In this document: one piece after another, positions 587 to 19,816 of the stretch
Position numbering within the stretch: the first letter of the stretch is position 1
How the letters are laid out: the number at the start of each line of letters is the position of its first letter
Source of the DNA: an uncultured Pelagibacteraceae bacterium
GTDB taxonomy: Bacteria > Pseudomonadota > Alphaproteobacteria > Pelagibacterales > Pelagibacteraceae
Assembly (NCBI GenBank): GCA_902578935.1
Contig: CACHEU010000002.1
Span: 62,001 to 126,000 of the forward strand
Reading direction: 5' to 3'
Length of the DNA: 64,000 bases
The notes under the pieces: model-generated
The model's database searches: none
What the model saw: the letters and a program-made list of their open reading frames with translations, nothing else
Told to the model about the DNA's origin: nothing
Translations under genes and position numbers: made by a program

Positions 587-612
587 AGTTTTTCCTCCCC
601 ATTAACACTAAT

Positions 613-633
613 TAATTAAAGTAACTTTAATTA
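613..633. promoter_or_regulatory. Perfect inverted repeat in the tmoX-tdm control region
   Basis: The arms TAATTAAAGT (613-622) and ACTTTAATTA (624-633) are perfect reverse complements around a single A. The element lies in the only gap between the divergent tmoX and tdm genes, 27 bases from the tmoX start. It lacks a GC stem and T-tract, so it is not a terminator. It has the shape of a dimeric repressor or activator site. No regulator gene is next to it, so the binding protein is unknown. Confidence 0.45.
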
Positions 634-712
634 CGCAAAGTCTATGGTCTGTCATTTTCCGAGTCAATCTGAATTGCATACCTTTGTCACACCTAGTATA
701 GTTGTTAGATAT

Positions 713-3046: not shown

Positions 3047-3047
3047 T

Positions 3048-4394
3048 ATGGCATTTCCTAAAAAAGCAAGATTTGTAGTTATTGGTGCGGGCATTCATGG
3101 ATTAAGCACTGCTTGGCATTTAGCAGAAAAGCTCAAGAAAAAAAATAGCAATGGTTCAAACAACGATATAGTTGTTATTGATAAAAGCGGAATAGCTTCA
3201 GGCGCAAGCGGAGTTGCTTGTGGTGTGGTTAGAAATAATTATTTTCAACCCGCTATGAGAGAACTAATGATGCACAGCGTTAAAGTTTGGGAGAGTGATC
3301 CAAAAAACTTTAGCTATCATCCAGTTGGCTATATGCAAATAAGTCCAGAGAGTATGCACAAAGATGTTGCAAGTATCTATAAACAACAGCAAGAAATTGG
3401 TTATGAGTCTACATTTATTGAGGGAAAAAAAGACTCAGACAAATATATGAAAGATATGTTTCATGATTGGCAAGCTAAAGGTATTACTTCTGTGTTACAT
3501 GAGAAAAGAGGAGGGTATGCAAATAATACTGCCTCTATTTATGGGTTAGCAAAAAAAGCAGAAAGTTTTGGCGTTAGAATAATAACTGGAACTGAAGTTA
3601 CAGGTTTTAAAAGAGGAAGTAATAGCAAAGCTGTAACGGGCGTTGTGACTGCAAAAGGAACTATTGATTGTGAACAAGTAGTTGTAGCCGCTGGTCCATG
3701 GGTAAAAAGAATATGGGACAGGCTTGAACTTCCTAAAAAAATTTCAATCAAAGATGAAAAAGGTAAAATACATAAAGATTATCCAATGTGGATATACTGG
3801 ATGTTAACTGAAGGTGTATTGGGTGTTGATCCTAATCTGCAAAAAACTAATGATGGCAAAATGCCACCGGTAATTCATGTAGATAGTGATGCGCATTTAT
3901 ATTCTGATGTCGATGGATCTTTAATAACCGATAAAATGTGGGGAATATATTATAAACCAGATTTTAATTTTAAAGGAATTCAAGGAGGGTCTGCTCCTTA
4001 TAAAATAATTAAGCCAGTTGATGAAGTAAAAGTAGATCCTTATGGACCAGATTCTCCAGACTATCAAACGACAGATGAATTTGCTCATATGTGGTGCTCT
4101 GCTTTAGCTCATTGTCAAAAAAGATTTAAAGGCAAAATTAAATTTTATCACAAAGGTCCATCAGGAGGACTTGGGTGTTTTACGCCGGACTCGTTCCCTA
4201 TATTCGATAGATTTTGTGAGAATGTTTATATGATTGCTGACTCTAATCATGGATACAAAATGATTGGAGTTGGGGACTTAGTTTCTGACGAACTTTTGGG
4301 GAAAGAAAACTCACTTCTCAAACCATTTAGATTCAATCGATACGCGAAAGGTCAATTACATCCAGTATCTAGCAGCCCTTTTCCTTGGAGCTAA
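3048..4394 (+). CDS. FAD-dependent amine oxidoreductase (DAO family) paired with tdm
   Basis: This 448-residue flavoprotein of the D-amino-acid oxidase/sarcosine-dimethylglycine dehydrogenase family starts 1 base after the tdm stop, so the two are almost certainly co-translated. The FAD site is near the N-terminus (VVIGAGIHGLSTAW, residues 11-24), followed by ASGASGVACGVVRNNY as in sarcosine oxidase beta chains. The C-terminal FAD-contact segment is also present (GLGCFTPDSFPIFD, then DSNHGYKMIGVG). No folate domain is fused to it; Tdm's GcvT domain could supply one in trans. Related enzymes oxidise N-methyl groups. Its position makes dimethylamine a plausible substrate, because the usual dimethylamine monooxygenase genes are not seen here. 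That is inference; dimethylglycine or sarcosine are alternatives. Confidence 0.7.
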   Translation: MAFPKKARFVVIGAGIHGLSTAWHLAEKLKKKNSNGSNNDIVVIDKSGIASGASGVACGVVRNNYFQPAMRELMMHSVKVWESDPKNFSYHPVGYMQISPESMHKDVASIYKQQQEIGYESTFIEGKKDSDKYMKDMFHDWQAKGITSVLHEKRGGYANNTASIYGLAKKAESFGVRIITGTEVTGFKRGSNSKAVTGVVTAKGTIDCEQVVVAAGPWVKRIWDRLELPKKISIKDEKGKIHKDYPMWIYWMLTEGVLGVDPNLQKTNDGKMPPVIHVDSDAHLYSDVDGSLITDKMWGIYYKPDFNFKGIQGGSAPYKIIKPVDEVKVDPYGPDSPDYQTTDEFAHMWCSALAHCQKRFKGKIKFYHKGPSGGLGCFTPDSFPIFDRFCENVYMIADSNHGYKMIGVGDLVSDELLGKENSLLKPFRFNRYAKGQLHPVSSSPFPWS

Positions 4395-4464
4395 ATCTAG
4401 ACGAGTATTTATTTTTCAGCTAACATATTTCAAATTTTGTTAATCTTTGGGGGAGGGATTAGTT

Positions 4465-5934
4465 ATGACGGATCTAGAGAAACACGTTAACCAACCAGGA
4501 CGTGATAAGTTAGTTAAAAAAGTCAGAGAAAAAATTAACGAATTAGGAATTACATACATTTATTACCAATTTATATCTGTAACAGGACGTGTTGTTGGTA
4601 AGGGAATTCCCGCAGACCATTGGGAAAGGACCGCAGAAAAAGGTTTTCAATTAGTTTATGGATCTACAGCCAATTTATTTGTAGACAGACACAAAAATTA
4701 TATCGGTTACGGCCCTGAAGCCATGGAGCTTGTTGGTATACCTGACCCTGAAACTTTCTGTCAATTGCCTTGGGATAAAAGAATTGGAAGAGTTTTTGTT
4801 ACATGTTTTAGAAACAGAGAAGAAAGAAAAAATCCAGGAGGACATTTAACTTCTGATTGTCGAGGAAATCTCAGAATATTTATGGATGAATTTGAGAAAA
4901 AACATGGATTAGAATTGAGAGTTGGAACTGAACCTGAAATGATGTGGTTGACAAAAAATCCTGATGGAACACCTACTGGATCAGGTTTTTCTAAACCATA
5001 CTGTTATCATATTGACCAATTTGAGTCATTGAGACCTGTGTTTATGAAAGTAATTGAGTACGCTTCAGCCATGGGTTTAGATATGATCCAAGGTGACCAT
5101 GAAGATGCTCCGGGACAATTAGAATTAAATTGGACATACGATAATGTTTTAAGAAACGCTGATAGACTTTCTACTTACAGACAAATTTGTGCGCAAGTTG
5201 CTAGAGAACATAATTTAATAGCATGCTTTATGACAAAACCATTTATGGGTGTATCTGCAAGTGGTTGCCATACAAACATGTCTTTATGGAAAGGTGGAAA
5301 AATTGTAACAAACAAATTAGGTAATAAAAAATTACCTGGAGTAGAGGAAGTGTTTGGTTATGTACAGGGAGGCACAAATACTTTTATGCCTGATACTAAA
5401 GATATGCAACTACCAGGTAAAATTGGTTTACAGTCCATTGCCGGAATAATGGAACACTTACCAGCGTTAACTGCATTAGGATCTTCGACGGTTAATTCTT
5501 ACAGAAGACTTTGGGACCAAGGTTTTTGGGCTCCTGTTTATGCGGATTGGGGATATCAAAACAGAACTTGCGGTCTAAGAGTATCAGCTCCTGGAAGATT
5601 TGAGTATAGATCGGTTGACTCTATGCATAATCCATATCTTTTAGGTGCAGCTATATTAAAAGCGTGTGACCATGGTATTTCAAAAAAACTAGTACCATCT
5701 AAGCCTGAATCTAGAAGTATGTATGAAGCTAAAAAAGAAGGTAAAGATGTTAAAAAACTTCCATTAAGTCTAGGAGAAGCTTTAGATAGATTAGCTGAAG
5801 ATGAAGTTATCAAATCAGCAATGCCAGATGAAATGTATAAAGTTTTTCATTGGTATAAAAATGACGAATGGGAAAAATTCTTAGGTGCAACGACCCAATG
5901 GGATCTTGATACCTACTTAGATTGTTTACCATAG
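4465..5934 (+). CDS. Glutamine synthetase-family ligase linked to mgsABC (possible gamma-glutamylmethylamide synthetase paralogue)
   Basis: This 489-residue glutamine-synthetase-fold enzyme joins an amine to glutamate using ATP. The start is the ATG at 4465, 8 bases after a strong GGGGGAGGG; the TTG at 4447 lies upstream of that site and is rejected. Family motifs are GDHEDAPGQLELNW (metal and glutamate site), SASGCHTNMSLWKGG (ATP side) and VNSYRRLWD. It heads the mgsABC genes and is clearly a different subfamily from the second ligase at 11510. A GmaS role, supplying the substrate of Mgs, is possible, but the 11510 protein looks more like known GmaS/GlnT. The amine it uses is therefore open: methylamine, ammonia or another amine. 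Confidence 0.75.
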   Translation: MTDLEKHVNQPGRDKLVKKVREKINELGITYIYYQFISVTGRVVGKGIPADHWERTAEKGFQLVYGSTANLFVDRHKNYIGYGPEAMELVGIPDPETFCQLPWDKRIGRVFVTCFRNREERKNPGGHLTSDCRGNLRIFMDEFEKKHGLELRVGTEPEMMWLTKNPDGTPTGSGFSKPYCYHIDQFESLRPVFMKVIEYASAMGLDMIQGDHEDAPGQLELNWTYDNVLRNADRLSTYRQICAQVAREHNLIACFMTKPFMGVSASGCHTNMSLWKGGKIVTNKLGNKKLPGVEEVFGYVQGGTNTFMPDTKDMQLPGKIGLQSIAGIMEHLPALTALGSSTVNSYRRLWDQGFWAPVYADWGYQNRTCGLRVSAPGRFEYRSVDSMHNPYLLGAAILKACDHGISKKLVPSKPESRSMYEAKKEGKDVKKLPLSLGEALDRLAEDEVIKSAMPDEMYKVFHWYKNDEWEKFLGATTQWDLDTYLDCLP

Positions 5935-5954
5935 TTTTAAGAGGAAAATAAATT

Positions 5955-6899
5955 ATGTGTGGAATAGCAGGACTAATTCATAGAGGAAAATCTTCAGATG
6001 TAGGAAAAGAACTACAAGATATGCTTCAAGCATTAAAGCATAGAGGTCCGGATTCTACAGGATACGCATTATATGGCGAAGGTAATAACCAGGGAGATTA
6101 CATAATGCGTTTTAAGGTTGGAGAAAACGTTGCTGAAGGAAGTTCTGCGGTCAAAGAAGACGAATCTGTATATAGCCAAAGAAGAAAACAAGTAGATCAA
6201 CATATTAGAGATCTTGGGGGAGACATTATTAACGATCAACAGTTAACACCTTACTCATTTAGATATGTCATTAAATATGACAAGGACTTGATGGAATTTT
6301 CAAAAAAAATTGAAAGTGTTGAAATGGTTGAAATACTATCTATTGGAAAATCATTAGAACTTATAAAAGATCTCGGCGATGCGAAAGTGGTATCAAAAAG
6401 ATATGGACTTGATAAAGTTAAAGGAACTCATGGTATAGGACATGCTAGGATGGCTACAGAGTCTGGCGTAGATATACGTTCAGCGCACCCTTTTTGGGGT
6501 TATCCTTTCAGCGATGTATCTGTAGTACACAATGGGCAATTAACAAATTATTGGAACAATAGAAGAGTACTAGAAAATAAAGGCATGCGATTTATGTCAG
6601 AATGTGATTCTGAATTGATAGCTGTTTTTCTTGCAGAAAAAATGAGAAAAGGCGCGTCGCTAGAAGAAGGAATGAAAGAATCTCTATCAGGCCTTGATGG
6701 AGTTTTTACTTACTTTGTTGCGACAAAAGACTCATTAGGTATGGCTAAAGATACAATGGCTGCAAAACCTTTAGTATTATATGAGTCAGATGATTTAGTG
6801 GCCATGGGTTCAGAAGAAATTGCAATTAGATCTATATTGCCGCAAGAAATAGATACCTATGATCCATTTGATGGAGAGGTGAAAGTATGGCAAATTTAA
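5955..6899 (+). CDS. mgsA: N-methylglutamate synthase subunit A (class II glutamine amidotransferase, GlxB-like)
   Basis: This is a free-standing Ntn-hydrolase glutaminase domain of 314 residues. Cys2, exposed after Met removal (MCGIAGLIHRG), is the nucleophile; LKHRGPDSTG, GIGHARMATESG and VVHNGQLTNYW are the class II signatures. In N-methylglutamate synthase this subunit corresponds to the amidotransferase domain of glutamate synthase. It acts on gamma-glutamylmethylamide so that methylamine is passed on inside the complex. An AGAGGA site precedes the ATG. The 3' end overlaps mgsB by 13 bases, which indicates coupled translation. GlxB of a generic glutamate-synthase-like complex is the alternative reading. 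Confidence 0.82.
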   Translation: MCGIAGLIHRGKSSDVGKELQDMLQALKHRGPDSTGYALYGEGNNQGDYIMRFKVGENVAEGSSAVKEDESVYSQRRKQVDQHIRDLGGDIINDQQLTPYSFRYVIKYDKDLMEFSKKIESVEMVEILSIGKSLELIKDLGDAKVVSKRYGLDKVKGTHGIGHARMATESGVDIRSAHPFWGYPFSDVSVVHNGQLTNYWNNRRVLENKGMRFMSECDSELIAVFLAEKMRKGASLEEGMKESLSGLDGVFTYFVATKDSLGMAKDTMAAKPLVLYESDDLVAMGSEEIAIRSILPQEIDTYDPFDGEVKVWQI

Positions 6900-7741
6900 A
6901 AACATCTACAAAAAAAACAAAAGCCCAATCAATGGGTATGCACACAGAAACTCTAACTGGAAAAACTCAGCAGAAATTTTTTAATCCGGACGAAGCAGAA
7001 AATTTCTTTTATTGGGGAACTCACGATGTAGATTTTAATAAAAGAACGGAAATTGACGTGAAAGATATGGACTGTAATGAAGCCAATAAAAAAATAGATT
7101 CTTTGATGGGCGAAGGTTACGGAACAATCGTAATTAAAAATCCTCAAGGAAAGCATAGTTTGGGTGTTGGAATATTAAATAAACTTAATTTGATTTTTGA
7201 GGGAAGTTTAGGTTATTTCGGAATTGGTTCAATAGATGGACCTATAGTCAGAGTTAATGGGCGTGTCGGATGGTCGTGTGCTGAAAATATGATGGCCGGC
7301 AAAGTAGTAATAGAAAAAAATGCTGGATCATGCTTCGGTGCTGCTATTAGAGGTGGAGATTTAATTTGTAAAGGAAGCGTGGGCGCAAGAACTGGTATTG
7401 ACCAGAAAGGCGGTTCAATAATTGTTGGTGGAGATGCTGGTGCATTTACAGGTTTTATGATGCAAAGAGGCAGAATAGTTATTTTGGGAGATGTTGGTAT
7501 CAACCTTGGTGACTCAATGTACGACGGAACTATATATGTAGGTGGAAAAATTGGTTCTTTTGGTAGTGATGCTGTAAAAGCCTCTATGACAAAAAATGAC
7601 ATAGACTGGCTAAAAAGAAAACTTAAAGTAGCAGAAATTGGTAGTGATTTTGATATTTCAAAAATGACAAAAGTAGTAGCTGGTAAAAAACTTTGGAACT
7701 ATGACGCTTTGGAACCAACAGAGAAAAAAGGAGCTATATAA
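6887..7741 (+). CDS. mgsB: N-methylglutamate synthase subunit B (GXGXG domain, GlxC-like)
   Basis: This 284-residue protein corresponds to the C-terminal GXGXG beta-helix domain of glutamate synthase, which holds the other subunits in place rather than catalysing. The repeating turns are visible in the middle: VNGRVGWSCAENM, GGDLICKGSVGARTG, KGGSIIVGGDAGAFTG, RGRIVILGDVGINLG. The first 16 residues are a lysine-rich tail. A GGAGAGG site lies inside the end of mgsA. The stop and the next start share TAATG at 7739-7743, so mgsB and mgsC are translationally coupled. Confidence 0.82.
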   Translation: MANLKTSTKKTKAQSMGMHTETLTGKTQQKFFNPDEAENFFYWGTHDVDFNKRTEIDVKDMDCNEANKKIDSLMGEGYGTIVIKNPQGKHSLGVGILNKLNLIFEGSLGYFGIGSIDGPIVRVNGRVGWSCAENMMAGKVVIEKNAGSCFGAAIRGGDLICKGSVGARTGIDQKGGSIIVGGDAGAFTGFMMQRGRIVILGDVGINLGDSMYDGTIYVGGKIGSFGSDAVKASMTKNDIDWLKRKLKVAEIGSDFDISKMTKVVAGKKLWNYDALEPTEKKGAI

Positions 7742-9120
7742 TGGCAAAGAAAAAAGTTAATGGCAAAACAAATGGAAAAAGTCAGTTTGCAAAAAGAAAC
7801 AAAAGCTTATTAGGTTATAATTCGATTTTTACACCTGAAGTTATTGACGACATACATATTAAAGCTCAATTAGGAAGATATAGAATGCGTGGAATGGCAT
7901 TAATGAAAAAAATTCCAACATTCGATGATTTGGTTTTTTTACCAGGAACACTAACAAGATTTGTAATTGAAGGTTACAGAGAAAAATGTGAAACAAAAAC
8001 TATAATAGGACCAAGATGCGAGAATCCTATTGAATTAGATATTCCTGTTTATATTACCGGAATGAGTTTCGGCGCTCTTTCTTATGAAGCAAAAACTGCA
8101 CTTGCAAGAGGAGCTACTATGGCGGGTTCAGCAACTTGTTCTGGTGAAGGTGGAATGATACCCGATGAAAGAAGATATTCAGAAAAATGGTTTTATCAGT
8201 GTATTCAATCAAGATATGGATTTAATCCTCATCACGCTCAGTTAGCTGACGGGATAGAAGTGTTTATTGGACAAGGTCAAAAAGTTGGTATGGGTGGACA
8301 TTTAATGGGTCAAAAAGTTACTGACCAAGTTGCAGAAATGAGATCTTTGCCGGCTGGTATTGATCAAAGATCACCGGCTCGACACCCCGATTGGTTAGGT
8401 CCTGATGATTTAGCATTGAAAGTTCAAGAACTAAGAGAATTAACTAAAAATAAAGTACCAATACAATTAAAACTTGGAGCAGCAAAAGTTTATGATGATG
8501 TGCGTATGGCCGCTAAGTGTGATCCAGATTCTATTTATTTAGATGGGATGGAAGGTTCAACCGGTGCAGGACCACATATTGCTGCAGCTAATACTGGAAT
8601 ACCTGGAATAGCAGCAATTAGAGAAGCTAGAAGAGCTCTTGATGACGTAGGCAAAACAGGGAAAGTAACTCTTATTTATGCTGGTGGTGTTAGAGATGGT
8701 GCTGATATGGCAAAAGCTCTTGCATTAGGAGCAGATGCAATCGCAATAGGTACAGGTGCCATGATTGCTCTAAACTGTAATAAAGAAATTCCTGAATCTA
8801 ATTTTGAAAAAGAAATGGGAGTTCCCGCAGGTCATTGTTATCATTGTCATACAGGTCGTTGCCCTGTTGGTGTTGCGACTCAAGATCCGAAATTAAGAAA
8901 AAGGTTAAATCCTGATGATGCCGCAGTAAGAGTTTACAATTATTTACATACGATGACTTTGGAAGCTCAATTGCTAGCAAGAGCATGTGGAAAAACAAAT
9001 ATACATTCGTTAGAACCAGAAGATATGGCTGCATTAACTATGGAAGCTTCTGCGCTTGCGAAAGTTCCTTTATCAGGAACAAATCATACTGTAGGAGTTG
9101 ACGACTTCCATAAAATTTAA
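7741..9120 (+). CDS. mgsC: N-methylglutamate synthase catalytic subunit C (FMN glutamate synthase domain, GlxD-like)
   Basis: This 459-residue FMN TIM-barrel resembles the central catalytic domain of glutamate synthase. It would combine methylamine released from gamma-glutamylmethylamide with 2-oxoglutarate to give N-methylglutamate. Visible features are YITGMSFGALSYEAK (residues 104-118), SGEGGMIPDERRYS, a DGMEGSTGAGP loop (268-278), and an iron-sulphur Cys cluster C366-x2-C369-x4-C374 near the C-terminus. It starts with another lysine-rich tail (MAKKKVNGKTNGKSQ). The ATG overlaps the mgsB stop. An archaeal-type or ferredoxin-linked glutamate synthase is the alternative, but the mgd and gmaS neighbours argue for Mgs. 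Confidence 0.83.
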   Translation: MAKKKVNGKTNGKSQFAKRNKSLLGYNSIFTPEVIDDIHIKAQLGRYRMRGMALMKKIPTFDDLVFLPGTLTRFVIEGYREKCETKTIIGPRCENPIELDIPVYITGMSFGALSYEAKTALARGATMAGSATCSGEGGMIPDERRYSEKWFYQCIQSRYGFNPHHAQLADGIEVFIGQGQKVGMGGHLMGQKVTDQVAEMRSLPAGIDQRSPARHPDWLGPDDLALKVQELRELTKNKVPIQLKLGAAKVYDDVRMAAKCDPDSIYLDGMEGSTGAGPHIAAANTGIPGIAAIREARRALDDVGKTGKVTLIYAGGVRDGADMAKALALGADAIAIGTGAMIALNCNKEIPESNFEKEMGVPAGHCYHCHTGRCPVGVATQDPKLRKRLNPDDAAVRVYNYLHTMTLEAQLLARACGKTNIHSLEPEDMAALTMEASALAKVPLSGTNHTVGVDDFHKI

Positions 9121-9130
9121 AGGATCAGAT

Positions 9131-9529
9131 ATGGCAAAAAAGAAGAAAAACAAACAAACTACCAAAGGTCAGCTCGGTAAAAAAAAAGAAACGGCTAGAG
9201 AAAAAATGATAGGCCAAACTATCGGATATCGATATGATGTAAACTTATTGCCTGATTATAAAAAACTTACTCCTTTTTTAAAAAAATACATTGAACATAT
9301 GGGTTGGGATGATCTTAATTGGTTAGAAGATGTACATATGGGTTATGAAGAAAATAGACCTGCTGTCTTTGATAGAAATGCTAATGGCTGGGTAACTATA
9401 CCTAAAAAAATTAAATTGCCAGATAATCAACAAGATAGAGATATGATTGCACGAGAGTTGCTAGTTAAGTTTCAAATGTCTCCAAACCATCCCCTTGTAG
9501 ATTTAAAAAAAGCATACAGAAAATTTTAG
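9131..9529 (+). CDS. Unknown 132-aa protein at the end of the mgs operon
   Basis: I do not recognise this family. The ATG at 9131 follows an AAAGGATC site 10 bases after the mgsC stop; an in-frame start at 9098 would lie inside mgsC and is less likely. The first 25 residues are a strongly basic tail (MAKKKKNKQTTKGQLGKKK). The rest is a soluble, Trp/Tyr-rich acidic body (GYRYDVNLLPDY, YIEHMGWDDLNWLEDVH, NGWVTIPKKIKLP, MSPNHPLVDLKKAYRKF) with no membrane segment, signal peptide or cysteine. Same strand, tight spacing and the shared basic-tail style with MgsB and MgsC suggest an accessory of the synthase complex. That is inference. Confidence 0.75.
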   Translation: MAKKKKNKQTTKGQLGKKKETAREKMIGQTIGYRYDVNLLPDYKKLTPFLKKYIEHMGWDDLNWLEDVHMGYEENRPAVFDRNANGWVTIPKKIKLPDNQQDRDMIARELLVKFQMSPNHPLVDLKKAYRKF

Positions 9530-9542
9530 TATTTACACAATC

Positions 9543-9583
9543 TTTGGTTGAACCAAAAACTAAAAGCATTGTTATATAACAAT
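9543..9583. promoter_or_regulatory. Two palindromes upstream of amtB
   Basis: TTTGGTT and AACCAAA (9543-9557, one central G) form a 15-base palindrome. ATTGTTATATAACAAT (9568-9583) is a perfect 16-base palindrome. Both lie in the 113-base gap between the mgs operon and amtB, 60-100 bases before the amtB ATG. There is no T-tract, so they are better read as operator-type sites than terminators. The first could also fold into a weak 5-bp hairpin. The cognate regulator is unknown. Confidence 0.45.
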
Positions 9584-9642
9584 TCTACATCGTTGTACTG
9601 TTTGTCGCACCAAATACAATATCTGCAACAAGAGGAGGGAAT

Positions 9643-11022
9643 ATGACTGACGGATTAGATGCCTTAACTGTCATATTTACGGAATTTTACTACTGGATAA
9701 CAGTGGTACTCATGTTTTTAATTCACGTGGGATTCTGTATGTATGAAGTAGGGGCTTCACGTTATAAACACCACCAACATACCCTAATGAAAAACACTAT
9801 GCTGATACCTCTGGTAACAGTGACGTGGTTTTTCTTTGGTTGGTGGATTTATTGGGCTTTCCCAACTGGACCAGGTATTGCACCGTCAATAATGACGGAG
9901 AGTTCTGGTTTAATTTTAGGTGGAGGATTTGGAGCAAATGATGTTGCAAACCCTATGAGCTCAATAATGGCGATAAACTTAAATGATCATATCAACGGAG
10001 TGTTCTGGGCTGCGTTCTTACTGTTTTCATGGACAGCAGCTTCGATCGTTTCAGGAGCAATAATTGAAAGAATTACAACTTTTGCATTTGGTATTTTAGC
10101 AATTGCAATCGGTTCTGTATTTTGGACAATTGATGCTGCTTGGGGCTGGCACTTTGATGGTTGGATGGTCAAACTTTTAGGTTATCATGATGCGTATGCA
10201 TCAGGTGTAATCCACGCAGTTGCTGGAGGTTTTGCTTTAGGTGTGCTTGCTGTTTTAGGCCCACGTATTGGAAAATTTTCATCTAGCGGAGAACCAAGAA
10301 ACATTGGACCAAGAAACCCTTGGTTAGTTTCTATAGGACTGTTCTTAATTTATACAGGCTTCTGGGGATTCTATGCAGCGTGTAATATACCAATATTTGA
10401 TCTTGGACCTGAGTACGGAATGGAAGGAGTAACATTCTATACTGCAACCAACATCTATATAACACCAACAACACTTAGTGGTGTAACCATGAACTTCTTA
10501 ATGTCCTTAGCTGGCGGTTTGTTAGCAGGATATTGGATTTCAAAAGGCGATCCATTCTGGACTTATTCAAGTGGACTAGCTGGTATCATCACCGCTTCTG
10601 CGGGTAACGATCTTTATCACCCAATACAATCAATGATTATTGCATCGATTGGAGTATGGGTTGCGTACAAAATGCATTACTGGGTTGAACGTAAGTTCAA
10701 AATTGATGATGCAGTTGGCGCAGTTGCCGTTCACGGATACGCAGGAGTTGTCGGACTTGTAATATGCGGTTTCGTTCTATGGGGATATCCTTCATCAGGA
10801 TATGGAGACGCTTACGCAGCGATCAACCCAATGGGAATGATTATTGGAGCTGTTATAATGTTCGGAGTTCTTGGTTTCTTACCAGGTTGGATTTTAGCTA
10901 AAATACTTCATGCATCAGGTAAATTACGTATACCTCGTGCAGTAGAGTTAGCTGGATTAGACTATAATATCATGGAGGCTGCTAAAAAAGATGAAAAAGC
11001 AGTTTCTTCAGCAGGTAGATAG
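9643..11022 (+). CDS. amtB: Ammonium/methylammonium transporter, Amt family
   Basis: This 459-residue polytopic inner-membrane channel has about 11 predicted helices. Amt landmarks are the two pore histidines (SGVIHAVAGG and AVAVHGYAG), the Trp-rich vestibule region and GLAGIITASAGNDL. It lacks a cleavable signal. A strong AGAGGAGGG site precedes the ATG. It imports ammonium and can carry methylammonium, which fits its place between the N-methylglutamate synthase genes and gmaS. It may serve methylamine uptake, recapture of released ammonium, or both. A small membrane-protein gene follows after 16 bases, then a terminator. Regulation is probably through the palindromes upstream. No glnK/PII gene is nearby. 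Confidence 0.93.
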   Translation: MTDGLDALTVIFTEFYYWITVVLMFLIHVGFCMYEVGASRYKHHQHTLMKNTMLIPLVTVTWFFFGWWIYWAFPTGPGIAPSIMTESSGLILGGGFGANDVANPMSSIMAINLNDHINGVFWAAFLLFSWTAASIVSGAIIERITTFAFGILAIAIGSVFWTIDAAWGWHFDGWMVKLLGYHDAYASGVIHAVAGGFALGVLAVLGPRIGKFSSSGEPRNIGPRNPWLVSIGLFLIYTGFWGFYAACNIPIFDLGPEYGMEGVTFYTATNIYITPTTLSGVTMNFLMSLAGGLLAGYWISKGDPFWTYSSGLAGIITASAGNDLYHPIQSMIIASIGVWVAYKMHYWVERKFKIDDAVGAVAVHGYAGVVGLVICGFVLWGYPSSGYGDAYAAINPMGMIIGAVIMFGVLGFLPGWILAKILHASGKLRIPRAVELAGLDYNIMEAAKKDEKAVSSAGR

Positions 11023-11038
11023 AAAGGAGAAATGACTT

Positions 11039-11284
11039 ATGGCTACATTAACTAATTGGGTAGAACATCTAACAACTGATGTTGACCCAGCGACGGATGG
11101 AATACAGGTTGCCGGGGAAATTTATCCTATGGTTGGAACCGAAGGATGGTTACTTTTGATTGGTATCATTTTCTGGTTAGCATGGCATTTTGCAACTGGC
11201 TCTGGAGAGGCAGAGGAGCAAAGCAAGTTAGCCAAGAAATCACCGGGACCAAACGCTCATAAAAGTAATATACCTGAGTGGTAA
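11039..11284 (+). CDS. Small single-span membrane protein co-transcribed with amtB
   Basis: This 81-residue protein begins 16 bases after amtB, behind an AAAGGAGA site, and is closed off by the terminator at 11304. It has an acidic N-terminal part, one hydrophobic helix (WLLLIGIIFWLAWHF, residues 38-52) and a polar tail rich in Glu, Lys and Pro. I do not recognise the family. The position suggests a partner or regulator of AmtB, but nothing in the sequence proves it. Confidence 0.72.
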   Translation: MATLTNWVEHLTTDVDPATDGIQVAGEIYPMVGTEGWLLLIGIIFWLAWHFATGSGEAEEQSKLAKKSPGPNAHKSNIPEW

Positions 11285-11303
11285 TCTGAAATATTAAAAA
11301 ATT

Positions 11304-11335
11304 GGGCGCTAATTTACTTAGCGCCCTTTTTTATT
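11304..11335 (+). terminator. Rho-independent terminator after amtB
   Basis: GGGCGCTAA (11304-11312) and TTAGCGCCC (11318-11326) form a perfect 9-bp stem with a 5-base loop, followed directly by six T. It ends the amtB transcript 20 bases after the 81-aa gene. It is one of only three convincing intrinsic terminators in the window. Confidence 0.92.
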
Positions 11336-11353
11336 TTATTTATTTTAGAAATT

Positions 11354-11497
11354 ATGGAAAACGAAGATAAAAATAAAAATCAAAGACCATCTAGAATGAT
11401 TAATATAGCTTTTCCTAAAGCTAAATATGGTTTCTATATAGCTATATTTATTATTGCTATGGTTTTATTAATACTTTACGGGAATTTAATATTATAA
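11354..11497 (+). CDS. 47-aa single-span membrane microprotein
   Basis: An ATG at 11354 opens 47 codons ending with TAA at 11497. The product has a charged, Asn/Lys-rich N-terminus (MENEDKNKNQRPSRMIN), a basic flank (FPKAKYG) and one hydrophobic helix (FYIAIFIIAMVLLILY) to the end, a classic small membrane protein layout with the basic side in the cytoplasm. It sits between the amtB terminator and gmaS, 12 bases before the gmaS ATG. No good Shine-Dalgarno is visible. It may be a real microprotein or a chance frame; the protein-like arrangement favours the former. Confidence 0.5.
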   Translation: MENEDKNKNQRPSRMINIAFPKAKYGFYIAIFIIAMVLLILYGNLIL

Positions 11498-11509
11498 ATA
11501 ATAAATTTT

Positions 11510-12835
11510 ATGGCTAAAGATTTATCAAAAATAGCAAAACAAAAGAAAATTAAATATTTTTTAATTAGTTTTGTTGATTTGTTTGGAGTTTTAAGATCAA
11601 AATTGGTTCCAGCAGAAGCAATAAAAGACATGCAAGCAAGCGGAGCAGGTTTTGCAGGATTTGCTACATGGTTAGATATGACTCCAGCAGACTCAGATAT
11701 GTTTGCTATTCCAGATCCTGAAAGTTTAATCCAACTTCCTTGGAATAAAGAAGTTGGGTGGTTAGCATCAGATTTGTGGATGGAAGGTAAGCCTGTAGAA
11801 GCATCACCAAGAGTAATGTTGAAAAAACAGATTAGTATACTGTCCAAAAAAAACATGGTTTTAAAATCTGGTGTGGAGTCCGAGTACTTCTTAATTAATT
11901 CTGAAGGAACTGCCATATCAGATTTACGAGATACACAATCTAAACCTTGTTACGATCAATCTGCATTAATGCGCCAATACCCTTTAATAAAAGAGATTTG
12001 TGATTCAATGATTAAATTAGGCTGGGGCCCTTATCAGAACGATCATGAGGATGCCAACGGACAATTTGAAATGAATTGGAATTATAGTGATAGCCTCACA
12101 ACAGCAGACCGCCATGTGTTTTTTAAGTTTATGGTTAAAACAATTGCAGAAAAACATGGTTTAAGAGCTACTTTTATGCCTAAACCTTTTGAAAATCTAA
12201 CTGGAAATGGTTGTCATGCACACGTATCTCTGTGGAACGGAAATAAAAATTTATTTTTAGATAAAGGAGATAGGTTAGGACTTACAAAATTAGCTTATAA
12301 TTTTTTAGGAGGTATTTTATATTCTGCGGAAGCATTGAGTGCTTTTTTTAATCCTTCAATTAATAGTTATCGAAGAATTGATGCGCCTGCTCCTACTTCT
12401 GGAGCATCTTGGTCACCAAGCAAAATATCTTATACAGGAAACAACAGAACTCACATGATTAGAATACCGGATCCAGGACGTTTTGAATTACGTCTGATGG
12501 ATGGATCAGCTAATCCATATCTTCTTCAAGCCGGCATAATAGCTTCAGGAATTCACGGGATGGAACAAAAGCGTGATCCTGGCCAACCTTTGTTTATCAA
12601 TATGTATACAGAGGGAGATAAGTATCCAAACCTAAAAAAACTTCCATCAAACCTAGAACAAGCTTTGGAACATCTCAGCAATAGTGAAATTTTATTGTCA
12701 GCTCTTGGTAAAAAAAATGTAGAAAGTTATTTAAAATTGAAAGAGCAGGAATTGAAAGATTTTAACTCTAAAGAAAGTTTTTCAAAAAAAGATCCAATAA
12801 CTGAGTGGGAAAAGTTAAATACTTTAGATTGTTAG
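11510..12835 (+). CDS. gmaS: Gamma-glutamylmethylamide synthetase (glutamine synthetase type III/GlnT-like)
   Basis: GmaS makes gamma-glutamylmethylamide from methylamine, glutamate and ATP, the entry step of the N-methylglutamate pathway. The 441-residue protein has the GlnT/GmaS pattern: KYFLISFVDLFGVLRSK, FATWLDMTPADSDMFAIPDP, NDHEDANGQFEMNW, NGCHAHVSLWNG and INSYRRIDAPAP. It resembles the Roseobacter and Methylocella GmaS sequences as I remember them much more closely than the ligase at 4465 does. It is divided from amtB by a terminator. It meets mgdD tail to tail, with stop codons overlapping in TTAG (12832-12835). GlnT-type glutamine synthesis is the alternative role. Confidence 0.8.
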   Translation: MAKDLSKIAKQKKIKYFLISFVDLFGVLRSKLVPAEAIKDMQASGAGFAGFATWLDMTPADSDMFAIPDPESLIQLPWNKEVGWLASDLWMEGKPVEASPRVMLKKQISILSKKNMVLKSGVESEYFLINSEGTAISDLRDTQSKPCYDQSALMRQYPLIKEICDSMIKLGWGPYQNDHEDANGQFEMNWNYSDSLTTADRHVFFKFMVKTIAEKHGLRATFMPKPFENLTGNGCHAHVSLWNGNKNLFLDKGDRLGLTKLAYNFLGGILYSAEALSAFFNPSINSYRRIDAPAPTSGASWSPSKISYTGNNRTHMIRIPDPGRFELRLMDGSANPYLLQAGIIASGIHGMEQKRDPGQPLFINMYTEGDKYPNLKKLPSNLEQALEHLSNSEILLSALGKKNVESYLKLKEQELKDFNSKESFSKKDPITEWEKLNTLDC

Positions 12836-13419
12836 ACACCAAAGTATCCAAATTCCAAGGCAGCATCAGTGATATGATGGTGAAAAGTTTCACCAAAACT
12901 TCTTAAAGCTAACAAATTGAATGTATCCGGATTATTATTAACAAAATCAACCATAACAGTAATTCCGTTAAAAACTGTTCCAGCACAATTGTTTACTTGA
13001 ATTTCATTAATATTAATTGGACATCCTTTTTTTAAAACTTCTTTTGCTTGGATACCTTTTATTTGTATTACAGCTCTTGAGTGCGAAATATCTGTAACAG
13101 CGAAATTTTTATCATCACACTTATCTTTAATAGTACTAATAATATTTTTTTTACTAGATATAACCAACCAAGTTCTTGGTGCACTCCATAGAATTCTTGT
13201 TTCTTTATTTGTTGTTACTTTTGGGCTTTCTAAAGGCAAATCTAAATCTCCTATCTTTATAGTGCCAAGTTCAATCTTTGATTTTTTGTATTGAACCAAT
13301 TGAATTATTGCTAAATTTTTTACTTCAGAAATTTGGAGCAAACTTTTTCCATCTTTTTTATGAGAATTTCCAAAACGACCTTTCTTATGAATATATTGTA
13401 ATGAAGTTACCGCTGTCAT
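12832..13419 (-). CDS. mgdD: N-methylglutamate dehydrogenase subunit D (sarcosine oxidase gamma-like)
   Basis: This 195-residue protein resembles the gamma chain of heterotetrameric sarcosine oxidase, a small GcvT-fold-like subunit that contacts the alpha chain. Recognisable stretches are RILWSAPRTWLVIS, VTDISHSRAVIQIKG and LALRSFGETFHHHITDAALEFG near the C-terminus. It is the last gene of the mgd operon, and its ATG overlaps the mgdC stop by 4 bases. Gamma subunits are poorly conserved; the position gives the call its strength. Confidence 0.8.
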   Translation of the reverse strand: MTAVTSLQYIHKKGRFGNSHKKDGKSLLQISEVKNLAIIQLVQYKKSKIELGTIKIGDLDLPLESPKVTTNKETRILWSAPRTWLVISSKKNIISTIKDKCDDKNFAVTDISHSRAVIQIKGIQAKEVLKKGCPININEIQVNNCAGTVFNGITVMVDFVNNNPDTFNLLALRSFGETFHHHITDAALEFGYFGV

Positions 13420-16412
13420 GATCTTACCCTTTCTCCTTTAGGATCGACATAATGTGAGGAAACCACTTCCACTTCGATACTTTTATTCTTTAATGGCGAA
13501 AGAGCGTAAAGTTTTTCTCCTATTCTTTTTTTTCCTTCTTTGAGAATAGCTAAAGAAAAAGGATTGTTATATTCAACACTCCAACAGGAAGCCGATATAT
13601 GTCCAAGTTTTGGGTTAGGTAAAGCAGCATTTTTATCTTTAACCAAATGAGATCCTTCTGGAATCATAGTTTTTTTATCTACAGGTATTACACCAACAAT
13701 TTTTTCTCTATTGGGATTTAAAAATGCCTCTCTATTTAAAGATCTTTTTCCAACAAAATCTTTTTTCTTACTTAACATACCTTCAAGAGAAAGGTCAGAA
13801 GGGATTGTTCTGCCATCAATCTCCGATCCTGCTACGTGTCCCATTTCTATTCTTAATGTTGAAAGAGCTTCTGTACCATACGGTTGTATACCCATGCTTT
13901 TTCCTAAGTTCATTATTTTTTCCCACATAAAAATTCCATGGTTAGATTCGACATTAATTTCATAAGCTAATTCACCAGAAAATGAAATTCTGAAAACTCT
14001 TGCTGGAATTCCAAATAAATTTTCTTCTTTGAATCCCATAAATGGAAAACCTTCGTTAGAAACATCGGTTTCAGGAAAAAGTTTTTTTAATAATTCTCTT
14101 GATTTAGGACCAGCTACAGCTGCGCCTGCCCACTGTTCGGTCGTTGACAAGACATTTACATCTAATTCAGGCCAAACTACTTGTAAATAATATTCTAAAT
14201 GCGCTAAAACATTTACTGCTTGGGCTGTTGTTGTTGTCATGTGAAAATGATTTTCCGAAATTCTAGTTGTTGTTCCATCATCAAAAACAATTCCATCTTC
14301 TCTTAACATTACACCATACCTTGCTTTTCCAACCGGCAGTTTCATCCAAGCATTTGTATAAACCCTATTTAAAAATTCTGCTGAATCAGGACCTTTGATG
14401 TCTATTTTACCTAACGAAGTAACATCACAAATTCCAACATTTTTTCTTACGTTTGCACCTTCTCGTTTCGCAGCCTGTTGCAAAGTTTCATTTCCTTGTT
14501 TGTAATAACGAGGTCTTAACCAAAGACCAGCGTCAACAAATACCGCATTATTTTTCTCATGCCATGAATGCATCGGAGATTTTCTTGTGGGTCGGTAATG
14601 TTTTCCAACCTCCCTTCCTACAATTGTTCCAATTGTAACTGGTGTATAAGGAGGTCTAAAAGTAGTATGTCCAACCTCAGGTACAATTTTATTTTCTATG
14701 TTTGAAACTAACTGTAGTCCATTTAAGTTACTTGTTTTTCCTTGATCTGTGGCCATACCAAGCGTTGTATATCTTTTTACATGTTCAATAGATCTAAATC
14801 CTTCTCTTATAGCTAACTCTATGTCTGAAACATAAACATCATTTTGAAAATCCACACACCTTTTATATTTTTTGTTTTCTGGCAAAGGCATACACCAAAA
14901 TTTTTCATAGTTATCATAGCTTTTTTCATTTGATGTTGGAGGATCACTTTTTATATTTTTTTTAGTTAGTTTGTTTGATACTTCAAATCCTTTATTGAAA
15001 CCGTCTTCCAAAGATTTTTTCAAAGTAAAAGATCCGTTTGCAGATCCTATCGTAGTTTCATTTTGGTGCGATTGATTAGGTATAAATGCACTAATGATTT
15101 CATCAAATTTTAATTTATTTCCAGACTGAGATGCAAGATGTACTGTAGGAGTCCAATTTCCAGAAACGCATATACAGTCACAAGGAATATTTTCTAAATT
15201 TTCATAACCAGATTTATCGTTATTTAATTTGCCGACTGTAGCTGAGCTTACTCTCAAATAACCTTTTGTATTAGCTACCGCATGAGAAAACTTAATGTTG
15301 ACACCTAAATCCTTGGCTTCTTTGACTGCTGTGCCTTCTGAATTTTTTCTAATATCAACAACTAATGGGTTAATTCCATTTTTTTTAAATTCTATTGCCG
15401 CATCATAAGCGCTATCGTTATTAGTAAAAATAACTGGTTTTTTTCCAACTAAAACACCATATTTTTTTATATATTCTTTCGCTGCTGACGCTAATAATAT
15501 TCCCGGTCTATCATTATTTCCAAAAATTAAAGGTCGTTCTATTGATCCTGTGGAAACCAAAACTTCTTTTGCTCTTATGTACCAAAGTTTTTGTCTAGGT
15601 GTATATTTGTTTGGAGATTCAATATGATCTTTTGTTCTCTCAAACATTACCATCATATTGTGATCATAATATCCAAAAACCTGTGATCTATTTTTTATAA
15701 CTACATTGGGCATTGATTTTAACTGTTCCACTGTTTCATCAGCCCATTCCTTTCCAGTTTTATTTCCGATAGTAACTTGATCAGTGAGTAAACTTCCTCC
15801 AAATTTTGATTTATCTTCTGCCAAAATAACCCGAGCTCCATTTTTTGCTGCAGCTAAAGCGCTTCCCAATCCAGAAGGACCTGAACCCACAACTAAAACA
15901 TCACAATGTTCAAACTTATGTTCATATCTATCAGGATCTGGTTTTAAAGGAGCCACACCTAAACCAGCAGCTTTTCTTATAATAGGTTCATAAATTTTAT
16001 GCCAAAAGCTTTTTGGCCACATAAAAGTTTTGTAATAAAATCCAGCTGGAAAAAATTTACTTAAAAAATTGTTTATTGCACCAAAATCAAAAGATACAGA
16101 TGGCCAACAATTTTGGCTTTTTGCAACTAATCCTTCAACTAATTCAACTTCTGTTGCAACAGCATTAGGTTCAGTTTTTGCTCCGTTATATAATTGAACT
16201 TTGGCATTAGGCTCATCTTCTTTAGACCCTATAAATCCTCTTGGTCTATGATATTTAAAGCTACGGCCAACCAAATGAATCCCATTCGCTAGCAAAGCTG
16301 ACGCCAATGTATCTCCATGATAACCAAAATACTTTTTTCCATTGAATTTAAATGAAATGCTTTTTTTTCTATTGATGTAACCTTCTTTATCTAATCTATA
16401 TTTTTGTGTCAT
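13416..16412 (-). CDS. mgdC: N-methylglutamate dehydrogenase subunit C (sarcosine oxidase alpha-like, folate-binding)
   Basis: The 998-residue large subunit has three visible parts. An N-terminal ferredoxin-like domain (about 15-100) has no cluster cysteines, as usual for this family. A dinucleotide-binding oxidoreductase region follows (VLVVGSGPSGLGSAL, from residue 172; second site VTIGTIVGREVG). A C-terminal GcvT domain (about 610-990) hands the methyl-derived one-carbon unit to tetrahydrofolate. In the N-methylglutamate enzyme this yields glutamate and methylene-tetrahydrofolate. The operon runs mgdA, mgdB, mgdC, mgdD with gaps of 3 and 7 bases, then a 4-base overlap. A plain sarcosine oxidase would look the same; the mgs and gmaS genes favour N-methylglutamate. 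Confidence 0.86.
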   Translation of the reverse strand: MTQKYRLDKEGYINRKKSISFKFNGKKYFGYHGDTLASALLANGIHLVGRSFKYHRPRGFIGSKEDEPNAKVQLYNGAKTEPNAVATEVELVEGLVAKSQNCWPSVSFDFGAINNFLSKFFPAGFYYKTFMWPKSFWHKIYEPIIRKAAGLGVAPLKPDPDRYEHKFEHCDVLVVGSGPSGLGSALAAAKNGARVILAEDKSKFGGSLLTDQVTIGNKTGKEWADETVEQLKSMPNVVIKNRSQVFGYYDHNMMVMFERTKDHIESPNKYTPRQKLWYIRAKEVLVSTGSIERPLIFGNNDRPGILLASAAKEYIKKYGVLVGKKPVIFTNNDSAYDAAIEFKKNGINPLVVDIRKNSEGTAVKEAKDLGVNIKFSHAVANTKGYLRVSSATVGKLNNDKSGYENLENIPCDCICVSGNWTPTVHLASQSGNKLKFDEIISAFIPNQSHQNETTIGSANGSFTLKKSLEDGFNKGFEVSNKLTKKNIKSDPPTSNEKSYDNYEKFWCMPLPENKKYKRCVDFQNDVYVSDIELAIREGFRSIEHVKRYTTLGMATDQGKTSNLNGLQLVSNIENKIVPEVGHTTFRPPYTPVTIGTIVGREVGKHYRPTRKSPMHSWHEKNNAVFVDAGLWLRPRYYKQGNETLQQAAKREGANVRKNVGICDVTSLGKIDIKGPDSAEFLNRVYTNAWMKLPVGKARYGVMLREDGIVFDDGTTTRISENHFHMTTTTAQAVNVLAHLEYYLQVVWPELDVNVLSTTEQWAGAAVAGPKSRELLKKLFPETDVSNEGFPFMGFKEENLFGIPARVFRISFSGELAYEINVESNHGIFMWEKIMNLGKSMGIQPYGTEALSTLRIEMGHVAGSEIDGRTIPSDLSLEGMLSKKKDFVGKRSLNREAFLNPNREKIVGVIPVDKKTMIPEGSHLVKDKNAALPNPKLGHISASCWSVEYNNPFSLAILKEGKKRIGEKLYALSPLKNKSIEVEVVSSHYVDPKGERVRS

Positions 16413-16419
16413 GAAAAGA

Positions 16420-16686
16420 TTATAATTCCTCAGTTAATTTAGCTGTTTTAAAAATCTCATGGGTTGATGTATCTCTTAAAACTTTAAACCATTGTCTACA
16501 TCCAGCTACATGATGCCATAACTCGGAATGTTTACCTCTCGGATTTTTTCTAAGATAAATAAAATTATCCCAGTCTTTATCTGAAACTTCTTTTCCCAGC
16601 TCTGGCCTTTTTATATTTGAGTCTCCACCATAAGAAAATTCATTTTGAGATCTTGATCCGCAATAAGGGCATTTAATTTCTAGCAT
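16420..16686 (-). CDS. mgdB: N-methylglutamate dehydrogenase subunit B (sarcosine oxidase delta-like)
   Basis: This 88-residue zinc-binding subunit corresponds to SoxD. The metal site is Cys6 and Cys9 (KCPYCGSR) with a His/Cys pair in WHHVAGCRQWF (His59 and Cys63). YLRKNPRGKHSELWHH is the family's central signature. Delta chains bind one Zn and help the alpha and beta subunits pack. It begins 3 bases after mgdA and is followed after 7 bases by mgdC, matching the standard soxBDAG gene order. Confidence 0.9.
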   Translation of the reverse strand: MLEIKCPYCGSRSQNEFSYGGDSNIKRPELGKEVSDKDWDNFIYLRKNPRGKHSELWHHVAGCRQWFKVLRDTSTHEIFKTAKLTEEL

Positions 16687-16689
16687 TTA

Positions 16690-17946
16690 TTATCCTATCC
16701 AAGTTTTTGTTCCTAAACCTTTTTCGTCAATGAGATGTCCTGTATTAAATCTATCGAGTCTATATTTTGAACTTAGTTCATGAACTTGATCTTTTGCAAT
16801 GGTGTATGCAAAGGTCCATCCCGAAACTGGTGTTGCTTTGAATCCTCCATAACACCATCCACAATTTAAATAAACACCATCAATATGAGTTTTGTCGATG
16901 ATAGGGGAACCATCCATAGACATGTCCATGATACCACCCCAAGTTCTTAACATTTTTAATCTACTTAAGTTAGGAAACATAGCCACACCTTCTGTTAAAA
17001 CATGTTGAAGAGTAGGGAGGTTTCCTCTTTGAGCATAACTATTATAACCGTCTAAATCTCCACCCATAACCATCTCGCCTTTGTCAGATTGACTACAATA
17101 AAAATGACCGGCACCAAAAGTTACTACATGGTCAAGAAAAGGTTTTACTGGTTCTGAAACACAAGCTTGAAGCACGTGTGATTCTATAGGTAATTTCATA
17201 TTTAATTTTTCAGCGAGTAATGATGTACTTCCCGCAACACACAATCCAACTTTTTTTGCTTTAATATTTCCTCTAGAAGTTTGAACGCCTTGCAGTTTTC
17301 CATTTTGAACATCAAAACCTGTAACTTCGCAATGTTGAATGATATCTACACCCATAGAATCAGCCTGTCTTGCATAACCCCATGCTACAGCATCGTGTCT
17401 TGCTGTTCCTCCTCTTGGCTGCATTAATCCTCCAAAAATTGGAAAACGTGCTGACTCAGAAAAATCTGCAAATGGAATCATTTTTTTTAACTCATCTCTT
17501 CCCAGCATAACGGCATCAATACCATTCAGTCTCATTGAATTACCTCTACGATAAAATACATTCATTTGTGCATCTGAATGCGCAAGATTAATAATTCCTC
17601 TAGGTGAGTACATTACGTTATAGTTTAATTCCTGGGACAGGTTTTCCCACATCTTCATTCCATACTCATAAAAAAGACCGTTAGGATCAAACATGTAATT
17701 GGATCTAAGAATTGTTGTATTTCTTCCAACATTTCCTCCTCCCAACCATCCTTTTTCTAACACAGCAACATTGGTAATTTTATGTTCTTTGGCTAAGTAA
17801 TATGCAGTAGCGAGACCGTGTCCACCAGCTCCTATAATTAAGACATCGTATTCTTTTTTGGGTTCAGAATCTTTCCATGCAACCTCCCAATCTTTATGGT
17901 TGCTAAATGCATTTTTAATTAAACTGAATATAGAATACTTTTGCAT
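16690..17946 (-). CDS. mgdA: N-methylglutamate dehydrogenase subunit A (sarcosine oxidase beta-like flavoprotein)
   Basis: This 418-residue FAD/FMN protein of the DAO family oxidises the N-methyl group. The FAD fold is LIIGAGGHGLATAYYLA (from residue 36). His184 in GGTARHDAVAWGYAR sits where heterotetrameric sarcosine oxidases bind FMN covalently. GWCYGGFKATPVSG near the C-terminus matches SoxB. It is the first gene of the mgd operon, transcribed leftward from the 97-base gap shared with the EamA transporter. The clear SoxB signature distinguishes it from the FAD enzyme at 3048, which lacks the TARHD segment. Confidence 0.88.
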   Translation of the reverse strand: MQKYSIFSLIKNAFSNHKDWEVAWKDSEPKKEYDVLIIGAGGHGLATAYYLAKEHKITNVAVLEKGWLGGGNVGRNTTILRSNYMFDPNGLFYEYGMKMWENLSQELNYNVMYSPRGIINLAHSDAQMNVFYRRGNSMRLNGIDAVMLGRDELKKMIPFADFSESARFPIFGGLMQPRGGTARHDAVAWGYARQADSMGVDIIQHCEVTGFDVQNGKLQGVQTSRGNIKAKKVGLCVAGSTSLLAEKLNMKLPIESHVLQACVSEPVKPFLDHVVTFGAGHFYCSQSDKGEMVMGGDLDGYNSYAQRGNLPTLQHVLTEGVAMFPNLSRLKMLRTWGGIMDMSMDGSPIIDKTHIDGVYLNCGWCYGGFKATPVSGWTFAYTIAKDQVHELSSKYRLDRFNTGHLIDEKGLGTKTWIG

Positions 17947-18043
17947 ATAATAATCTTATATAACCCTATTAAATTGTAAAAGGCTTTAATTAACACCGTG
18001 TTTTTTAACTAAACAAAGAAGATAAAAAGTCTACAATCTAGAA

Positions 18044-19779: not shown

Positions 19780-19816
19780 ATTTGAAGTTTATATTGTATA
19801 ATAATTTTAACAAAAT

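Follow-up and report, generated by a model that had tools for sequence, protein, structure and literature searches.

A small single-span membrane protein gene paired with a distinct branch of Amt transporters in SAR11 and other Alphaproteobacteria: a candidate accessory subunit

The usual description of an Amt transporter is a homotrimer whose partners are soluble PII proteins. In the window (the whole stretch of DNA analysed, 64,000 nucleotides from an uncultured SAR11 bacterium of the family Pelagibacteraceae), an amt gene is followed by a gene for an 81-residue protein with a predicted membrane helix, and the question is what such a protein does behind an Amt transporter. The reading favored here, and held to be moderately probable from sequence comparison, is that the protein is an accessory subunit required by a distinct branch of Amts that works independently of PII.

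The small gene (11039–11284, + strand) starts 16 nt past the amt stop codon (11020–11022). A Shine–Dalgarno-like AAAGGAG (11023–11029, +) is located 9 nt ahead of the start, and an intrinsic-terminator-like hairpin (11304–11326, +; 9 bp, GC-rich, followed by six T) is located 3′ of the amt–small gene unit. The description given in the first-pass annotation, an 81-residue single-helix protein between amt and a terminator, agrees with the ORF, the AAAGGAG and the hairpin. Under a stricter rule, 48 of 80 SAR11 loci have a similar terminator behind the small gene; it is common in SAR11, though not seen at every locus. A promoter scan detected no promoter-like site between amt and the small gene, nor in the 113-nt gap 5′ of amt (9530–9642), and the former result makes a separate expression of the small gene improbable; spacing, strand and hairpin suggest that both genes are carried on one transcript. 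The 113-nt gap has no Rfam match, and an Rfam search of window positions 1–20000 returned nothing up to E 1. In the gene tables of strain HTCC1062, SAR11_1310 is listed as amt after a hypothetical gene, with a gap of 125 nt on its 5′ side (PMC2704228); judging from this published gene order, SAR11_1310 is probably the counterpart of the window Amt. Comparison of the window small gene with five relatives gives dN of 0.069–0.13 and dS of 0.46–1.39: it is a real protein-coding gene under purifying selection.

The small protein has one hydrophobic segment with a hydropathy maximum at residues 31–49, and hydropathy and a predicted model together place its membrane helix at about residues 35–54 (11141–11200, +). 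The model contains a short helix (residues 4–12) and a long helix (residues 34–66); its overall confidence is low (pLDDT 65, pTM 0.31), and it is confident only in the middle of the long helix, where the block of residues 41–50 reaches pLDDT 93. Seventeen positions are invariant among 22 aligned sequences, one of them the window protein; they include W7, H10, Y29-P30, G33, E35, W46, E57, N72, K75, and W81. Most SAR11 copies end in a tail of the form N-x-x-K-x-N-I-x-x-W, which is not kept outside SAR11; kept across the branch are the start with its Trp, probably outside the membrane, the helix, and a Glu directly past the helix. In 39 of 39 small proteins (5 from SAR11, 20 from the near group and 14 of the remote type, groups described below), the 25 residues that follow the helix contain more Lys and Arg than those ahead of it (166 vs. 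10), and acidic residues are likewise frequent on the C-terminal side of the helix. This charge distribution predicts an outward-facing start and an inward-facing tail. Searches of the small proteins against Pfam, NCBIfam and PHROGs gave only weak matches, none at cut-off, and the best solved-structure match to the small-protein profile (E 0.32) was rejected.

The adjoining transporter (459 residues; 9643–11022, +) is a divergent member of the Amt family (PF00909 166.4 bits, cut-off 23.2), with the pore His pair, Phe gate and Asp present and Cys at the position equivalent to Ser219. Its score for the TIGR00836 amt subfamily is 166 bits against a cut-off of 343.3; two further Amts of the same branch score 186.4 and 215.5 bits, this scoring being confined to branch members. 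The second Amt of the same genome, on contig 4, is canonical (PF00909 298.6 bits vs. 165.8 for the window Amt). A quick tree separates 62 paired-type Amts from 38 canonical Amts by one branch with SH-aLRT support of 100, and that the paired Amts form one deep, distinct branch is a solid result. The position names used here (Ser219, Trp212, Asn216, and others) were mapped via characteristic motifs, and one SAR11 locus (L113) is labeled as near-branch non-SAR11 in both the tree and the residue counts. The twin His, both gate Phe residues and the Asp equivalent to Asp160 are kept in 100 of 100 Amts (62 of the branch and 38 canonical). Branch Amts without exception (62 of 62) have Cys at the position of Ser219, where 37 of 38 canonical ones have Ser (one gap); they likewise all have Phe at that of Trp212 (Trp in 38 of 38 canonical Amts) and Tyr, Leu, or Met at that of Asn216 (Asn in 38 of 38). 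The branch thus appears to be altered at the outer recruitment site, with the pore preserved. In E. coli AmtB, S219, W148, and F107 make up the periplasmic ammonium site S1 (PMC10433425); the AmtB-type site with Ser219 is absent from the branch, and the alignment at the W148 column is unreliable. The S219A mutation in E. coli AmtB raised the uptake of methylammonium and also that of ammonium (PMC10433425), so Cys at this position is by itself no pointer to amines. A search of phages with the window Amt returned five records with 23–29% identity.

Within SAR11, the small gene accompanies this Amt consistently. The divergent Amt was found in 46 of 147 family genomes and the small gene in 47, and all 46 genomes with the Amt have the small gene; the 47th small gene begins at a contig end, where the Amt is absent. 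Conservation of the pair in SAR11, the check suggested in the first-pass annotation, is therefore borne out. The canonical Amt on contig 4 (L208) has no small single-span ORF on its 3′ side under the strict form of the ORF rule, which 73 of 80 SAR11 loci pass, all 80 passing the looser form; the small gene is present yet missed by the strict hydropathy rule in 7 of 80 SAR11 and 4 of 32 near loci. A profile of the remote type (A4), searched against the window genome without a positive control, gave no match.

Beyond SAR11, the survey covered genomes of Pseudomonadota and plasmids. The SAR11 small-protein profile matches 34 of 385 genomes of the class, 33 of them with an Amt directly 5′ and one (L122) on a contig without Amt; the Amts at the first set of these loci are 59–83% identical to the window Amt, and four more loci were read later. 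In the phylum, 12 of 398 genomes match, and an Amt lies just 5′ in three, the genome of the window itself (G000), G396, and G858; the latter two match with E < 1e-5, and their Amts are 67% and 52% identical to the window Amt. The other nine phylum matches, the best of them at E 7.5e-4, lack an Amt in the locus and were discarded as chance. The G858 locus (L148), in which a 63-residue partner ORF lies 30 nt behind the Amt (52% identity), is intermediate between the near and remote groups and is useful for joining both. Viral contigs searched with the same profile contained no relative.

The search with the small protein supplied the 80 SAR11 loci and, of the 33 near non-SAR11 loci, 32 (the Amt supplied L168), so their pairing rates are partly a matter of construction, including those of the near non-SAR11 loci (31 of 32 by the looser and 28 of 32 by the strict rule; L122 could not be scored). 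The Amt alone served to find the remote genome loci (n = 14) and those on plasmids, in a search in which, among the matches listed, one set scores at least 258 bits and canonical Amts score at most 100. A small single-span ORF lies 3′ of the Amt at 14 of 14 remote genome loci under the strict rule, and at 7 of 8 plasmid loci under the strict and 8 of 8 under the looser rule. The plasmid sample consists of 13 matches, of which nine were fetched and eight scored; four Thioclava matches were left out, and a Parasedimentitalea copy, which aligned in four pieces, was excluded from scoring. Plasmid copies occur in Ruegeria, R. conchae among them, and in Ponticoccus, Thioclava, Falsirhodobacter, Aminobacter, and one Pseudomonas aeruginosa isolate, and all eight scored ORFs are annotated as "hypothetical protein."

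The small gene would be a chance ORF only with next to negligible probability. Canonical Amts also have such ORFs on their 3′ side (1 of 38 under the strict and 6 of 38 under the looser rule, in a non-random set of 40 hand-picked from the top canonical matches listed, two of which, at edges, were left unscored), and the rule is crude, given that its strict cut misses true loci and its looser cut passes those 6 of 38. The invariant residues, purifying selection and class-wide detection by profile nevertheless refute a chance origin for the SAR11 and near copies. The ORFs at remote loci are 50–68 residues long, single-span, on the same strand and within 100 nt of the Amt, and the Amts there are 37–45% identical to the window Amt by tblastn (41–48% in other comparisons). 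Most remote ORFs combine a Trp-acid-Gly start with a single helix that a Glu shortly follows, and alignment of the remote with the near profile by hhalign gives a probability of 93.3% and E 2.7e-7 over 58 columns; the similarity is low, short hydrophobic proteins align easily, and the Aminobacter ORF is barely recognizable, with little in common besides size and helix. The close pairing of the small gene with one Amt branch is a solid observation, and the pair marks this whole branch in Alphaproteobacteria and is not a SAR11 peculiarity.

PII proteins, the usual partners, are scarce around this branch. The first-pass annotation noted that GlnK is absent nearby, which is an understatement: the whole genome of the window (95.2% complete) has no match to PF00543 (PII), whereas 13 of 14 control genomes matched, and it encodes two Amts yet has no PII match. 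A PII motif, searched as a sequence pattern, occurs nearby at 1 of 43 branch loci vs. 18 of 20 canonical loci. The small protein itself has no Pfam match, hence none to PF00543, and does not belong to the PII/GlnK proteins. It is conceivable, though unlikely, that the protein replaces GlnK and blocks or opens the Amt according to nitrogen status via its cytoplasmic tail. The scarcity of PII fits this idea, as do the conserved tail of most SAR11 copies and the C-terminal motif of canonical Amts, which, by a pattern made for this analysis, 25 of 38 canonical Amts have and none of the 62 branch Amts has. The tail, however, is unconserved outside SAR11, whereas the outside start, the helix and the Glu after it are kept, and the space ahead of the small gene contains no promoter-like site, so that expression of the small gene on its own is improbable. 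Since the conserved part comprises the outside start and the helix, a structural subunit fits better than a cytoplasmic, GlnK-like regulator. Of the earlier idea of a small membrane regulator or chaperone, the conserved pair in one unit stands, and a regulator or chaperone function is held to be less probable than that of a subunit.

A role restricted to insertion or assembly of the transporter, or to its protection from proteolysis, outside the working transporter, is somewhat less probable again than the replacement of GlnK. Such small proteins are known, namely MgtS and MgtU for Mg2+ transporters (PMC10710835), and the pairing is consistent with a chaperone. The adjacency at every scored branch locus that was found by the Amt favors a fixed partner, but it does not cleanly separate a chaperone from a permanent subunit. 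Gene adjacency need not mean that the proteins bind; that the small protein is a working subunit of the transporter is nonetheless likely from the sequences, and a function in setting amine selectivity is put forward as a proposal.

The genes around the window pair point to methylated amines. Upstream of amt are genes for a trimethylamine N-oxide (TMAO) demethylase (Tdm; 644–3046, +; NF053776 1152.4 bits, cut-off 1100), an FAD oxidoreductase, a glutamine-synthetase-like enzyme (GS1; 4465–5934; below NCBIfam cut-offs), three N-methylglutamate-synthase-like subunits (5955–9120, +; assigned from ORFs and Ruegeria annotation), and a conserved 131-residue protein (u131; 9134–9529, +) that is present at 74 of 80 SAR11 loci and has no Pfam match near cut-off and no NCBIfam match. 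The three subunits are presumably of the glxB, glxC, and glxD type, names taken in part from the annotation of Ruegeria relatives. A second small membrane ORF of 47 residues (11354–11497, +), with a basic start and an FPKAKYG-like motif, lies 3′ of the terminator, between it and a gene for a type III glutamine synthetase or GmaS-like enzyme (11510–12835, +; TIGR03105 606.2 bits, cut-off 469.6); it is present at 80 of 80 SAR11 loci, and 63 other context loci gave only two weak matches to it (E 2.0 and 3.9). Beyond the type III glutamine synthetase are sarcosine-oxidase-type genes on the opposite strand, of which soxB was tested and the others are presumably soxA and soxG. A gene at 23237–24007 is taken by us to be proteorhodopsin-like.

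The exact order tdm-dao-GS1-mgsA-mgsB-mgsC-u131-amt-small-GSIII is found at 40 of 80 SAR11 loci and, with sox genes in addition, at two more, and the remainder contain shorter stretches, to which contig ends, the limit of the 10-kb flank and true absences may each contribute. The mgsC-like large subunit is present in 42 of 147 family genomes, and all 42 are among the 46 with this Amt; the Amt genomes without it (G082, G122, G126, G130) are 55–74% complete. This synteny is what would be expected if the small protein belonged to the methylated-amine enzymes, with the Amt merely adjoining, a reading that is very improbable: the pair persists among differing neighbors and at loci with no counted gene within reach, and only one of the 34 class profile matches is not beside an Amt, its contig having none. 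Methylated-amine genes (counted as tdm, mgs-type subunits, dmmA, and DUF3445) occur near 23 of 43 branch loci (10 of 20 near, 6 of 14 remote and 7 of 9 plasmid loci) vs. 1 of 20 canonical loci, in flanks of about 9 kb for genomes and 6–12 kb for plasmids; 20 of the 40 canonical loci were used, and one query set came from a Ruegeria plasmid, which matches itself. The other 20 of the 43 branch loci, some on short contigs, have none of the counted genes, and the neighbors of six of these, read by eye, share no common theme. The branch as a whole may therefore not be devoted to methylated amines, and because of this mixed context the claim about substrate is limited to SAR11 and the methylated-amine clusters.

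For the window Amt, the score below the TIGR00836 cut-off and the position in a TMAO/methylamine block suggest that ammonium may not be the main substrate. The transporter that the first-pass annotation labels amtB is thus part of a methylated-amine block. In HTCC1062, the glxBCD operon (SAR11_1313–1315), glnT (1316), and soxBDAG were proposed to serve methylamine oxidation (PMC3160333). Ammonium-transporter homologs, of this or another Amt branch, are among the functions that respond to methylamine in Methyloversatilis (PMC5023235). The figure legends of two studies of methylamine gene clusters mark amt, and in the passages covered no small gene is mentioned and no dedicated methylamine importer is named (PMC5520151, PMC7574528).

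SAR11 genomes are described as containing tdm and lacking dmmDABC (PMC5520151), and the block at 644–9529 is a candidate for an alternative dimethylamine route. Among the 43 branch loci, dmmA and DUF3445 are both missing from the nine that have GS1 and synthase-like genes, and GS1 and u131 are both missing from the ten that have DUF3445 or dmmA; this mutual exclusion is weak (P 0.09). Eight SAR11 genomes of another genus encode, some 1.8 kb past the small gene, a second synthase large subunit that is 51–53% identical to the window copy (7741–9120). The HTCC1062 glxBCD operon may have been named for this second copy, and either set could be the true N-methylglutamate synthase.

The altered outer site of the Amt and a conserved part of the small protein that is predicted to lie on the same outer side are the basis of the proposed mechanism. 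The small protein would be made together with its Amt, would span the membrane with the start facing outward and the tail inward, and would pack against the Amt trimer, such that the segment with the conserved Trp, Tyr-Pro, Gly, and Glu comes to lie at the outer rim, beside the changed substrate-recruitment site. There it could aid assembly of the transporter or influence the choice of the small amine to be recruited. We infer the physical binding, the topology, the position on the trimer and the substrate. In SAR11 and many relatives, the transporter would import methylated ammonium (methylammonium and perhaps dimethylammonium) for the adjacent TMAO/N-methylglutamate-type pathway; for SAR11, context and pore changes make a methylated-amine importer the most likely function of the Amt and its small protein. 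The more specific idea of a two-component Amt, in which an outward single-span subunit makes the transporter a high-affinity methylated-ammonium importer and the route of methylamine uptake in SAR11 and many Alphaproteobacteria, is tentative. The pair may explain how certain bacteria that rank among the most abundant in the ocean take up methylamines. An Amt branch with a membrane partner also allows the determinants of Amt selectivity or assembly to be tested directly, and the branch together with its small gene can be used as a marker in metagenomes.

Among known systems, the transporter itself is closest in kind to the Amt/Mep/Rh family (PF00909), for example E. coli AmtB, with which it shares the twin His, Phe gate and Asp160 equivalents. 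It differs from AmtB in its deep, separate branch, its changed outer site and its adjoining small partner gene, and in that the canonical C-terminal motif is not found in the branch and a PII motif is rarely nearby. GlnK–AmtB is likewise a two-gene Amt unit, but GlnK is a soluble, cytoplasmic PII protein, whereas the window protein is predicted to be membrane-bound. No report of the Amt–small gene pair appears among the literature matches listed, and reports in print beyond these may exist. The first-pass annotation held that a small membrane regulator or chaperone of Amt would be novel; small proteins acting on Amts do have a precedent: sP36 of Methanosarcina mazei, a protein of 61 residues with no membrane helix, targets AmtB1 and mediates the GlnK1–AmtB1 interaction on ammonium upshift (PMC10714827). 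Set beside the published description, the window protein resembles sP36 in being small, and sP36 binds an Amt; the window protein differs in its predicted helix and in a genome without PII match, and is not of the sP36 type. A small membrane partner seems undescribed so far in the Amt family, whereas other transporters have such partners, with which the window protein shares a predicted single span and a close genetic pairing with its transporter. KdpF is one such small partner of a large transporter. A review of transporter control lists AcrZ, MgtS, MgtU, and WatS1 and, in the passages covered, names only GlnK for AmtB (PMC10710835). These four tune or stabilize a large transporter, albeit not an Amt, much as is proposed here, and two of them, AcrZ and WatS1, change its substrate preference (PMC10710835).
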